Assembly (NCBI GenBank): GCA_001874305.1
Contig: MPCU01000002.1
Location: 558,001 to 622,000, forward strand
Reading direction: 5' to 3'
Source: Bacteriovorax sp. MedPE-SWde
Lineage (GTDB): Bacteria > Bdellovibrionota > Bacteriovoracia > Bacteriovoracales > Bacteriovoracaceae
Length of the DNA stretch: 64,000 bases
The first letter of the stretch is position 1; every line of letters starts with the position of its first letter. A program made the translations under genes and the position numbers. The notes beneath the pieces are model-generated. The model worked only from the letters and a program-made list of their open reading frames with translations. It had not been told where the DNA came from and made no database searches. This document shows, one piece after another, positions 51,426 to 54,616 of this stretch.

Positions 51426-53270
51426 ATGAACGATGATGAAAATGGTAACAGTGATGATGGATCAATCTGGACATCATATAGTGACATGTTCACAACAATG
51501 GCAATTATCTTTCTCGTCATGTTTGTATTTGCACTTCTTAGAAGTGGAGTTAGTACCCTAACAGCAATTAAAGAAAAGAAAGAAAAAGAAGCCTTTATTG
51601 AAGGTCAAATATCAGACAAAGAAAAAGTTAAAGACCAAAAAATTATAAAGAACTTAGAAAAAGAAATAACTCAAATGCAGAGTTACTCACAAATCATTGA
51701 TGACAAAATGAAAGAGATGAACAATTTTGCCAAGAAAATGAATAAGCACAAAGACCTTGTAGCAAAGGCGATGAAGAGCCAACAGAGAACCCAAGTTGCA
51801 CTTCAAAAAACAACTAAGAAGTTACAATCTAAACAGAAACTATCATCAAGACAAAAAAGAGAACTTAAACAACTTAACTACCACATAGACAAGTATCAAA
51901 AAGATCTTTCTAAACTTAAGATCTCTAAGAATAGCTTAATAAAGAATAAGACTAAACTAGAAAAGAACTTGAAAAATCGAGAAAAAGAGATAACCAGCCT
52001 TAAGATGGTAAATAACAATGAGAAAGTGAGGAATAAAAAGCTTGAGCGGTCTTTCATTCAAAAATCTAAAGAGAATATGATTCAGTCTCAAAACATATCA
52101 TCTCTTCAAAGAGAAAATCAAAGAATTAAAGATGACTTAAAAATATCAACAAACTACATTCAAAAAACTGAAGAGACATTAAAAGAAGCCGATACTAACT
52201 TAAGAACTAGTATGGCAAATAATATTAAATCTCAAAATGAAATCCAGCAAAAAGATAGGACTCTATCACGAAAAACTCAAGAGATTGCCAAACTATCTAA
52301 GTCGATAGAAAACAAGAATAATAAAATCAAATCAACACTTTCAGAATTAGCAAAGATCCAAAAGTACTCAAAGAGTTTAAGTAATAGTATCAATAATAGA
52401 GATAGCTCGATATCTAAACTTAAGACAAGTATTGCTTCACTTCAAGGATCTTTAGCAAAAAGTAAGTCCAATCAAAAGGAGCAACAGTCGCGATATGAAA
52501 AGCTATCGAAGAACCTACAAAATTTAAAGAACTACACTTCGACCCTTGCAGCAAAGGTAGGAGATCTTGAAGATGAGAATAGGTCTCTTCATAAAGAACT
52601 AAAATCATCATACGCTGCCCTATCTAAGGCCAAAGGACAGAACAAAAGAATATCAAGAGGAATAGCAAGTGTTAGAAATAATATACGTTCACAAATTGGT
52701 CAAAACATTGCTCAAAAGCTAAAAGAAGCAAATCTCTATGCGAAGGTCGACCCATCTTCTGGAAGTGTTACATTACAAATGGATGATGCTTTCCTATTTA
52801 AGAGAAATGACTTTCATTTAAGCCTTAGAGCGAAGAAGACATTAAAAGAGATCATTCCGCTATATGTTGATGCGTTATTTAAAGACTCTTCAACTTATAA
52901 CTATATTGAGTTTGTGAATATAGTAGGTCACGCTTCTCCACGCTATGACAAGAAGTACATGTCCCCTATTTCTAAGAATAATCAAGATGCATTCAATTAC
53001 AATATGGAGCTTAGTACAAATAGGGCCAAAGAGATTGTTAAATATATTTTCAGCAAAGAGTTTGGAAAGTTTAAGAATAAGAATATTTTCAGACAGAAAG
53101 TATCGGCAATTGGAAGGTCATTTTCTGATCCTATTAAAAGAAGTCCTGCAAGTACAAATAAAGATACTTCTTGTGGACAATATGACTGTAAGAGTTCGAG
53201 AAGGGTTGAGATAAAATTCACACTTAAAGAAGATAAGAAGATATGGAATAAACTAGAGAATTTAAACTAG
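51426..53270 (+). CDS. MotB/ZorB-like motor stator subunit with long coiled coil
   Basis: 614 residues, AAGGAGC before the ATG. A short cytoplasmic tail is followed by 'WTSYSDMFTTMAIIFLVMFVFAL': Asp20 at the start of the single membrane helix aligns with the ion-binding Asp of MotB ('AYADFMTAMM') and ZorB. Then comes a Lys/Gln/Glu-rich coiled coil, ~45-435, and a C-terminal OmpA-like peptidoglycan-binding domain (~440-605; 'VGHASPRY', 'NMELSTNRAKEIVKYI', 'SSRRVEIKFTL'). A MotA-like gene follows in 8 bases. The coil is unusually long for this subunit. It is not near flagellar genes. Confidence 0.8.
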   Translation: MNDDENGNSDDGSIWTSYSDMFTTMAIIFLVMFVFALLRSGVSTLTAIKEKKEKEAFIEGQISDKEKVKDQKIIKNLEKEITQMQSYSQIIDDKMKEMNNFAKKMNKHKDLVAKAMKSQQRTQVALQKTTKKLQSKQKLSSRQKRELKQLNYHIDKYQKDLSKLKISKNSLIKNKTKLEKNLKNREKEITSLKMVNNNEKVRNKKLERSFIQKSKENMIQSQNISSLQRENQRIKDDLKISTNYIQKTEETLKEADTNLRTSMANNIKSQNEIQQKDRTLSRKTQEIAKLSKSIENKNNKIKSTLSELAKIQKYSKSLSNSINNRDSSISKLKTSIASLQGSLAKSKSNQKEQQSRYEKLSKNLQNLKNYTSTLAAKVGDLEDENRSLHKELKSSYAALSKAKGQNKRISRGIASVRNNIRSQIGQNIAQKLKEANLYAKVDPSSGSVTLQMDDAFLFKRNDFHLSLRAKKTLKEIIPLYVDALFKDSSTYNYIEFVNIVGHASPRYDKKYMSPISKNNQDAFNYNMELSTNRAKEIVKYIFSKEFGKFKNKNIFRQKVSAIGRSFSDPIKRSPASTNKDTSCGQYDCKSSRRVEIKFTLKEDKKIWNKLENLN

Positions 53271-53278
53271 GAATAATT

Positions 53279-54163
53279 ATGCTATCACTTGTATTAGATT
53301 TCTTTTCTACCTACCTCATTGAAGCCATGGCCGTCATGCTTGTTTGTGGCCTCATATTTAGGTGGACGGCCTATAGAAAAAGTTTAAAAGAAGATAATTA
53401 CTTTTCAACATTTGTTAGTGAAATTGAAAAGGCACTATCAGAAAAAGAGAAGGATTCGAGCGAAAATGTTCAAGTCTATGTAGAAGATCTTCTAATGTCT
53501 ATTAAGGATAAGCTTCCTACTCGATCCGTCAGAGGTTCTAAGAAAAAGCCTAGTACATCAAGTTACAATGCAAGAAATGTTGTATCTTTGAGAGACTTTG
53601 TTACTGGGGAGAAAGGTCTCTTTCATTCCATTATTGCTGAGTCTGGTGCACTCAAATCTAAACATCCACCAAACTATAATGAATTAACAGAAAGAATTCT
53701 TGAGAAAGATGAAAACTGGACAAAGATCTTAGGCTTCATTCCTATTGCTCCAGTATCTCGACTCAATGATACCCTACCTGGAATCTTTGTAGTCTTTGGA
53801 ATCTTTGGTACTTTTATAGGTATCTCTATGGCGCTACCAGAGATTGCAAATATTGATTTCAATAACCTTGAAAAGTCAGGAGAAGTACTCACACGTTTTG
53901 TACTCAGCGTAACATTCGCGATGAAAACTTCTATCGCAGGGATTTTGTTCTCACTTGTTATGACAATGCTCAATACTCTTGCACCAGTTAGAGGACTCAG
54001 AAACAAAACATTTAAAAAAATGTCTAATTGCTTTGAAAATATTTGGATTTCTCTACATGGAAAGAAGAAGGTTGAGGAAGAGTTAATTGAATCAATTCCC
54101 CTTCTTCTAGAAGAAGTGAGGGAATTAAAAGAATATGTTAAACAATCAAAAAAGGCCTCTTAG
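53279..54163 (+). CDS. MotA/ZorA-like motor stator subunit
   Basis: 294 residues, AGGA six bases before the ATG. Membrane helices ~8-27, ~166-187 and ~210-235, with a ~130-residue cytoplasmic region between the first and second. 'TLPGIFVVFGIFGTFIGISMALP' and 'FVLSVTFAMKTSIAGILFSLV' are the ion-channel helices, with the MotA Pro (Pro167) and TS pair (217-218), and look closer to ZorA/ExbB-type than to flagellar MotA. It forms the outer ring around the MotB-like dimer and should use proton or sodium flow. No ZorC, ZorD or ZorE gene follows. The C-terminus is a short cytoplasmic coiled tail. Confidence 0.8.
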   Translation: MLSLVLDFFSTYLIEAMAVMLVCGLIFRWTAYRKSLKEDNYFSTFVSEIEKALSEKEKDSSENVQVYVEDLLMSIKDKLPTRSVRGSKKKPSTSSYNARNVVSLRDFVTGEKGLFHSIIAESGALKSKHPPNYNELTERILEKDENWTKILGFIPIAPVSRLNDTLPGIFVVFGIFGTFIGISMALPEIANIDFNNLEKSGEVLTRFVLSVTFAMKTSIAGILFSLVMTMLNTLAPVRGLRNKTFKKMSNCFENIWISLHGKKKVEEELIESIPLLLEEVRELKEYVKQSKKAS

Positions 54164-54616
54164 ATGTCAATGGTAAGCTTAGTAAAGGGCTGTAGTCTCT
54201 TTCATGAAATATATGATAACGAAATAGAAGAAGTAATTAAACATTGCGTTGTCGCCACATATGAAAATGACGACTATATAATCAAGCAAGGAGATGAAAG
54301 TACCGACATTTGTATTCTCCTATCAGGAGAAGCCGATATTGTATTTTCGGATGGGGACAAACAAAGCTATATTGCCACTCTTAAACAAGGTGATATCTTT
54401 GGGGAGCTTGTTCTTATCAACGAGACAAAGAGAACCGCTAACATTATATGCAAAAAGCCTTGTGATGTTTTAATTATAAAATACGAGGACTTCTATTCTT
54501 TCTATAATAAGAACCCAAAGATTTTTTCATTACTGGTATTAAATATTACGAGATTAGTTACAAAGAGATTGAAAATGATGAATGCGGCCTTTCAGGATGT
54601 TAATAAGGCCGCTTGA
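54164..54616 (+). CDS. Stand-alone cyclic-nucleotide-binding domain protein
   Basis: 150 residues. The ATG directly follows the TAG stop of the MotA-like gene, so translation is coupled. The whole protein is a CNB domain: 'LFHEIYDNEIEEVIKH', 'YIIKQGDESTDICILLSGEADI', and the phosphate-binding cassette 'GDIFGELVLINETKRTANI', which keeps Glu81 and Arg90, the ligand contacts. It has no DNA-binding domain, so it is not a CRP regulator; a C-terminal helix may contact a partner. Together with the two motor subunits it suggests a nucleotide-gated motor. The partner is inferred from operon structure only. Confidence 0.85.
   Translation: MSMVSLVKGCSLFHEIYDNEIEEVIKHCVVATYENDDYIIKQGDESTDICILLSGEADIVFSDGDKQSYIATLKQGDIFGELVLINETKRTANIICKKPCDVLIIKYEDFYSFYNKNPKIFSLLVLNITRLVTKRLKMMNAAFQDVNKAA

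Follow-up and report, generated by a model that had tools for sequence, protein, structure and literature searches.

A ZorAB-like motor pair with a cyclic-nucleotide-binding partner gene in Bacteriovorax and its relatives

Three adjacent genes of Bacteriovorax sp. MedPE-SWde encode a MotB-like protein (B subunit), a MotA-like protein (A subunit) and a stand-alone cyclic-nucleotide-binding (CNB) protein. They lie in a stretch of 64,000 nucleotides, the window of this analysis, which covers positions 558001-622000 of contig MPCU01000002.1 (hereafter C8) in a genome of 3.76 Mb. The pair of membrane proteins is a ZorAB-like motor core, with a predicted 5:2 stoichiometry and predicted rotation, and its association with the CNB gene recurs in 44 loci, far beyond chance. 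The ZorAB-like motor core is already known; we found no description of the B-A-CNB module. We consider that the three genes probably form one machine, an envelope motor with a ZorAB-like core and a periplasmic rod that would be switched by the CNB protein, and we infer its gating, its ligand and its mechanical output.

Organization of the three-gene unit

The genes follow each other in the order MotB-like, MotA-like and CNB, all on the + strand, and are separated by 8 and 0 bases. The open reading frames (ORFs), coordinates and gaps given in the initial annotation were reproduced to the base:

51426..53270, + strand: MotB/ZorB-like dimer subunit, ORF of 614 aa with one transmembrane (TM) helix, a coiled-coil rod and an OmpA-like domain
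53279..54163, + strand: MotA/ZorA-like pentamer subunit, ORF of 294 aa with three long helices, without the ZorA tail
54164..54616, + strand: stand-alone CNB protein, ORF of 150 aa with a CRP-like C-helix, without a DNA-binding domain

The immediate neighbours on both sides of the triplet are oppositely oriented, and no recurrent fourth gene was detected among the 44 CNB-linked loci, whose shared flanks are restricted to subsets of related loci and reflect synteny. The unit therefore consists of exactly three genes. Scans for Rfam families, promoters and terminators returned nothing usable. A second triplet is present in the same genome (G000), with its MotA (1171-2076) and CNB (2073-2537) genes on contig C4 (region G000 C4:1-2537). 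Its MotB gene is apparently split across the ends of C4 and C8 (G000 C8:1-2097), suggesting that these two contigs are adjacent.

Linkage of the CNB gene to the motor

The homologue search covered 129 genomes from the order and 369 from the phylum, and the flanking DNA of the loci was read. A CNB gene adjoins a MotA-like gene of the window kind at 44 loci belonging to at least three families. Within the order, 41 CNB-linked loci were found, 40 of them with the CNB gene on the same strand and most with gaps of less than 12 bases; outside the order, the three loci of this kind (L203, L204 and L205, from two further families) all possess the CNB gene. Overall, the CNB gene is on the same strand at 43 of the 44 loci, and L039 (7401-7895) is the sole locus where it is convergent to MotA. 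A tree of 92 A subunits places the CNB-linked motors together in one supported clade (97/98) of 45 rows. The CNB gene had been presented as dedicated to the pair, and the search for the triplet bears this out, since homologues, far from consistently lacking the gene, keep it in 44 of these 45 motors. The distances between MotA proteins and between CNB proteins are correlated (r = 0.86), with none of 2000 permutations as high. The presence of the triplet is patchy, as it was found in about 38 of the 129 genomes of the order.

The motor core

The MotA-like protein is the A subunit of a motor of the MotA/ExbB/ZorA fold, with the pore Thr and Ser in place. The LPGIFVVFGIFGTFIGI and AMKTSIAGILFS helices reported at first reading are both present, and the pore is made of the following elements, in which conservation is counted over the CNB-linked clade and the sister clade described below:

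53744..53848, + strand: pore helix TM2 (residues 156-190), from the AlphaFold2 model
53810-53812, + strand: Thr178 in TM2, conserved in 84/84, aligned with ZorA T147 (PDB profile alignment, hand-counted)
53867..53980, + strand: pore helix TM3 (residues 197-234), from the AlphaFold2 model
53930-53932, + strand: Ser218 in TM3, conserved in 82/84, aligned with ZorA S184 (PDB profile alignment, hand-counted)

Pfam MotA_ExbB misses this subunit (E 0.36), the PADLOC ZorA model gives a weak match (about 1e-7) confined to the pore helices, and the NCBIfam ZorA and ZorB models match the pair far below their cut-offs. A profile built from 20 MotA-like relatives was compared to the PDB with matches listed to E = 10. 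Among motors it retrieved ZorA chains only (8qyh at 8e-6, 8vvn and 8vvi), MotA, ExbB and TolQ being absent over this whole range. The AlphaFold2 model (pLDDT 76) exhibits three long helices, for which Foldseek places ZorA chains on top, but none passes E 0.001. With VIA-align, ZorA, ExbB and TolQ are tied at Z about 11, and fold alone therefore does not set them apart for the A subunit.

The MotB-like protein is the B subunit, with a single TM helix and a predicted ion-binding Asp. The PADLOC ZorB model (ZorB1) matches residues 417-606 at 9e-39, and the best PDB match of a MotB-like profile is ZorB (8vvi_A, 1.5e-14). The AlphaFold2 model (pLDDT 70) comprises one TM helix, followed by a near-unbroken helix up to position 434 and, beyond it, an OmpA-like domain, and Foldseek ranks ZorB first (8vvi_A, 7.6e-9) while also matching OmpA domains. 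The OmpA-like C-terminus of the initial annotation, missed by Pfam, was thus recovered by PADLOC and Foldseek, and the Asp20 that it singled out was found inside the TM helix (...WTSYSDMFTT...).

51483..51485, + strand: codon of the predicted ion-binding Asp20, an Asp in 72/72 MotB-like homologues over both clades
51615..52727, + strand: coiled-coil rod, residues 64-434, nearly all helix in the AlphaFold2 model with one weak gap at 257-266
52728..53225, + strand: OmpA-like domain, presumed peptidoglycan-binding, residues 435-600 (PADLOC 417-606; Foldseek matches to ZorB and OmpA domains)
53172..53189, + strand: Cys583 and Cys588 (CxxxxC) of the OmpA-like domain, possible disulfide

The rod has a hydrophobic period of exactly 3.50 over residues 64-434, unequalled in strength by any of 500 shuffles, and Pro and Gly are almost absent from it, and the segment is therefore a coiled coil, whose length would be about 55 nm as one straight helix. 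By homology to ZorB, its topology would be periplasmic. Among relatives, the rod extends from about 370 residues (in the window) to well over 1000, and the whole MotB-like protein reaches up to 1758 aa; a long-rod relative is found at L047 (8954-14230). The CxxxxC pair is conserved in 76/76 homologues checked from both clades and is absent at the equivalent place of four ZorB reference sequences.

The CNB protein

The third protein belongs to the CNB domain family, since both the fold and the cassette Glu and Arg are present, and it is predicted to bind a nucleotide. Its domain is the only clear Pfam match in the triplet (PF00027, 5.7e-20). The Glu81 and Arg90 pointed out previously are located within FGELVLI and KRTA, respectively.

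54398..54439, + strand: phosphate-binding cassette FGELVLINETKRTA, with Glu81 at 54404-54406 and Arg90 at 54431-54433

The cassette residues Gly80, Glu81 and Arg90 show no variation (42/42 diverged CNB proteins), and residue 91, just after the cassette Arg, is variable (T, N, H, Y, Q, S, A). No helix-turn-helix (HTH) DNA-binding domain was found, as the protein stops after the C-helix at 150 aa and library scans match the CNB domain only. The host genome harbors 15 CNB-domain places and, away from the triplet, four class III cyclase matches; a ligand is therefore plausible, and these cyclases could make one. In a tree of the triplet CNBs with the other CNBs of the genome, the forks are weak and the branches long.

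A sister clade with an FHA partner

A second supported clade of the A-subunit tree (33 rows, 99/97) gathers more distant proteins (25-37% identity). The third slot of these loci is occupied by a protein that begins with an FHA domain (PF00498 at 3e-17 in L207), continues with a long coiled coil and a TM segment and ends in a conserved C-terminal domain. Such MotB-MotA-FHA loci are L048-L058, L133-L142 and L206-L222. They resemble the window unit by the B-A-partner order, the same Cys pair, a similarly long MotB and a similar C-terminal tag on MotA, whereas they differ by their separate clade, by their third gene (FHA, coiled coil, TM and C-terminal domain instead of CNB) and by their distribution, which is phylum-wide in Bdellovibrionota with mostly one copy per genome. 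In the genus of G154, presumably Bdellovibrio, almost all listed genomes carry a single match of this distant kind. Three of the four loci examined in that genus show an FHA neighbour; in L208, the MotA-like frame is absent from the ORF picks. As CNB occurs in one clade and FHA in the same slot of its sister, there is one motor type with two alternative signalling partners. Our reading is that ZorAB-like envelope motors make up a family whose signalling partner is interchangeable and would respond to a cyclic nucleotide here and to a phosphopeptide in the sister clade.

Relation to Zorya, flagellar stators and other systems

The pair had been described as a ZorAB-like core that is neither a flagellar stator nor a full Zorya system, and all three statements stand. 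PADLOC, PDB profiles and Foldseek all point to ZorA and ZorB, and the Zorya proteins of types I and II (PDB 8qyd, 8vvn, 8vvi) are the nearest in sequence and in model, with the same ion-path Asp, the same Thr/Ser ring and an OmpA domain at the C-terminus of the ZorB-like subunit. In ZorAB the Asp packs against a Ser/Thr ring, and both the cytoplasmic extension of ZorA and the peptidoglycan-binding domain of ZorB are required for Zorya defence (PMC11890865). Here ZorA and ZorB homologues are present, but the C-terminal extension of ZorA and the effector genes are not. The MotA-like chain has 60 residues beyond its last pore helix (234 of 294), compared to total lengths of 607-773 aa for four ZorA references, and ZorC/ZorD, ZorE and ZorF/ZorG are not beside the pair. 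Zorya membership was rejected because of this missing tail and these missing effectors, and defence was kept as a rival function (see below). Furthermore, Zorya carries a long cytoplasmic tail on ZorA, whereas a long coiled coil is carried here by the B subunit; the CxxxxC pair of the OmpA-like domain and the CNB partner, in place of ZorC/D, ZorE or ZorF/G, also distinguish the unit, and the Zorya type I loci examined run A-B-C instead of B-A-CNB. In the tree, ZorA has a branch length of 6, and its placement with respect to the two clades is tentative.

A flagellar stator was rejected on the basis of the PDB profile search and of the A-subunit tree, in which MotA_ExbB paralogues fall outside the clade on long branches and the pair does not group with flagellar MotAB. 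By analogy, flagellar MotAB/PomAB with PilZ regulators (YcgR, FlgZ) also pair a 5:2 motor with a cytoplasmic regulator that senses a nucleotide, but their A subunit has another topology, and cyclic di-GMP (c-di-GMP) and PilZ are used there instead of CNB. ExbBD, TolQR and the vWA force-transducer motors are likewise envelope motors driven by the proton motive force and working through the periplasm, but the report on them describes neither an OmpA-like domain with a coiled-coil rod nor a CNB partner (PMC12204202). Pycsar effectors and CRP share the CNB fold with its phosphate-binding cassette, whereas the protein studied here has no fused TIR or TM effector, no HTH and no adjoining cyclase. 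Motors with a CNB or FHA partner did not turn up in the open-access papers searched on Zorya types (PMC8565338, PMC11890865), on 5:2 motors (PMC9389320, PMC12505986, PMC12204202) or on Bdellovibrio signalling, an absence that is no proof.

Proposed mechanism and alternatives

Judging from homology and the conserved ion path, five MotA-like subunits would surround two MotB-like subunits, and ions passing Asp20 would turn the pentamer against the dimer. The dimer would be prolonged by the long rod to the OmpA-like ends, and torque or tension may in this way be transmitted through the periplasm to the peptidoglycan. The CNB protein would bind a cyclic nucleotide and, in its nucleotide-bound or nucleotide-free form, dock onto the pentamer from the cytoplasmic side, where Zorya has the ZorA tail; this docking would switch the ion flow and thereby start or stop the motor. 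By analogy, the role proposed for CNB is comparable to the control of flagellar stators by YcgR and other PilZ proteins with c-di-GMP. The motor may serve the cell envelope of Bdellovibrionota, perhaps at a life-cycle transition. We consider this likelier than a role in phage defence because Zorya parts are missing, the setting is chromosomal, related genera have flanks in common and the sister motor is near-universal in the presumed Bdellovibrio genus.

Several observations weigh against a CNB-switched motor. One member of the CNB-linked clade, at L131 (4304-5179), has no adjoining CNB gene, the sole such case. Adjacency and coinheritance are no proof of a contact between MotA/MotB and CNB, and a CNB fold may have a different ligand, or no ligand at all. 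Finally, a straight rod would measure 55 nm, and about 200 nm in the longest relative, which is too long for a normal periplasm of 20-30 nm.

The alternative that survives best, albeit unlikely, is that CNB is a part of the machine but no switch, acting as an assembly or positioning factor with a purely structural nucleotide or with another ligand. Bacterial CNB folds can indeed bind other things, and the variation of residue 91 means that the ligand may differ between subgroups, but the cassette Gly and the ribose and phosphate contacts (Gly80, Glu81 and Arg90) are invariant in the 42 diverged proteins. We also find it rather improbable that the unit is an anti-phage offshoot of Zorya, in which CNB would sense a phage-induced cyclic nucleotide, as in Pycsar, and open a ZorAB-like channel. 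The closeness of the core to ZorAB, the scores of the CNB domain to Pycsar effector models in PADLOC and the patchy distribution would suit such a role. However, PADLOC identified neither ZorC/D/E/F/G nor the Pycsar cyclase PycC among ten neighbours, where its sole defence match was one weak generic GTPase, and the ZorA extension required for defence (PMC11890865) is missing. Moreover, the triplet has no match in 72,556 plasmid and 50,697 phage records, its flanks are common to some related genera, which suggests vertical descent, and the FHA-type sister motor is present once per genome in nearly all listed genomes of the presumed Bdellovibrio genus.

An auxiliary stator for the host flagellum or for a gliding motor is very improbable. 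The unit belongs to the same 5:2 superfamily and its hosts to a group of motile predators, but the MotA_ExbB-family paralogues of the genome are separate and far away, no MotA, ExbB or TolQ chain appeared to E 10, and the model has three long helices, like ExbB and ZorA. That CNB is a bystander sharing the operon by chance, as L131 without CNB and the convergent CNB of L039 might evoke, is hardly credible and largely refuted by the 44 of 45 motors with CNB over three families, the recurrent tight spacing and the correlated distances.

A shared C-terminal tag

The MotA-like and CNB proteins, although unrelated, both tend to end with K-[KED]-A-[SA]:

54149..54160, + strand: C-terminal KKAS tag of the MotA-like protein
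54605..54613, + strand: C-terminal KAA tag of the CNB protein

With a slightly looser pattern, the tag was found in 52/65 MotA-like tails and 29/40 CNB tails versus 5/469 neighbouring proteins (Fisher 9e-54 and 4e-33, respectively, p-values that are too strong owing to shared ancestry). Genome-wide, KKA[AS]-stop gave 22 DNA matches versus 4 in a reversed control. In-frame tags were read, among others, in an HD-GYP protein, a CpaF-like ATPase, a response regulator, an HPt protein, a chemoreceptor-like protein and a globin (names by reading). Outside the triplet, the tag is recorded at G000 C5:74474-75613 and C2:155063-156196 and at loci L227-L279. In homologues of the HD-GYP and CpaF-like proteins the tag is kept across many genera, and the residues preceding it are variable. 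At L039, the convergent CNB lacks the tag while its MotA retains it.

A role as docking motif between motor and CNB is weakened, since HD-GYP and CpaF-like proteins, which are unrelated, also bear the tag. An origin at the DNA level, from the start of the next gene, was rejected, as CNB is the last gene of the unit and the L039 MotA keeps its tag despite a convergent CNB. The transfer-messenger RNA tag of the genome ends with MAA, and E. coli ClpX substrates include tails ending with LAA and RRKKAI (PMC8138137). By resemblance to ClpX C-degrons, our guess is that the tag may be a lineage-wide C-terminal degron.

Significance

A more complete picture, which we put forward tentatively, would be a motor switched by a cyclic nucleoside monophosphate that turns or pulls a rod of tens to hundreds of nm, with CNB and FHA as plug-in receivers of a phylum-wide set and a C-terminal degron that clears the assembly at a life-cycle transition. 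There is also a physical question, namely the function, on a rotary motor, of a coiled coil that greatly exceeds the periplasm in length. If the CNB-switched motor is true, motor gating could be tested on a module of three genes by means of a soluble small-molecule ligand, and the ZorAB core would be put to use outside phage defence, in predatory bacteria that also possess an FHA-linked sister motor.

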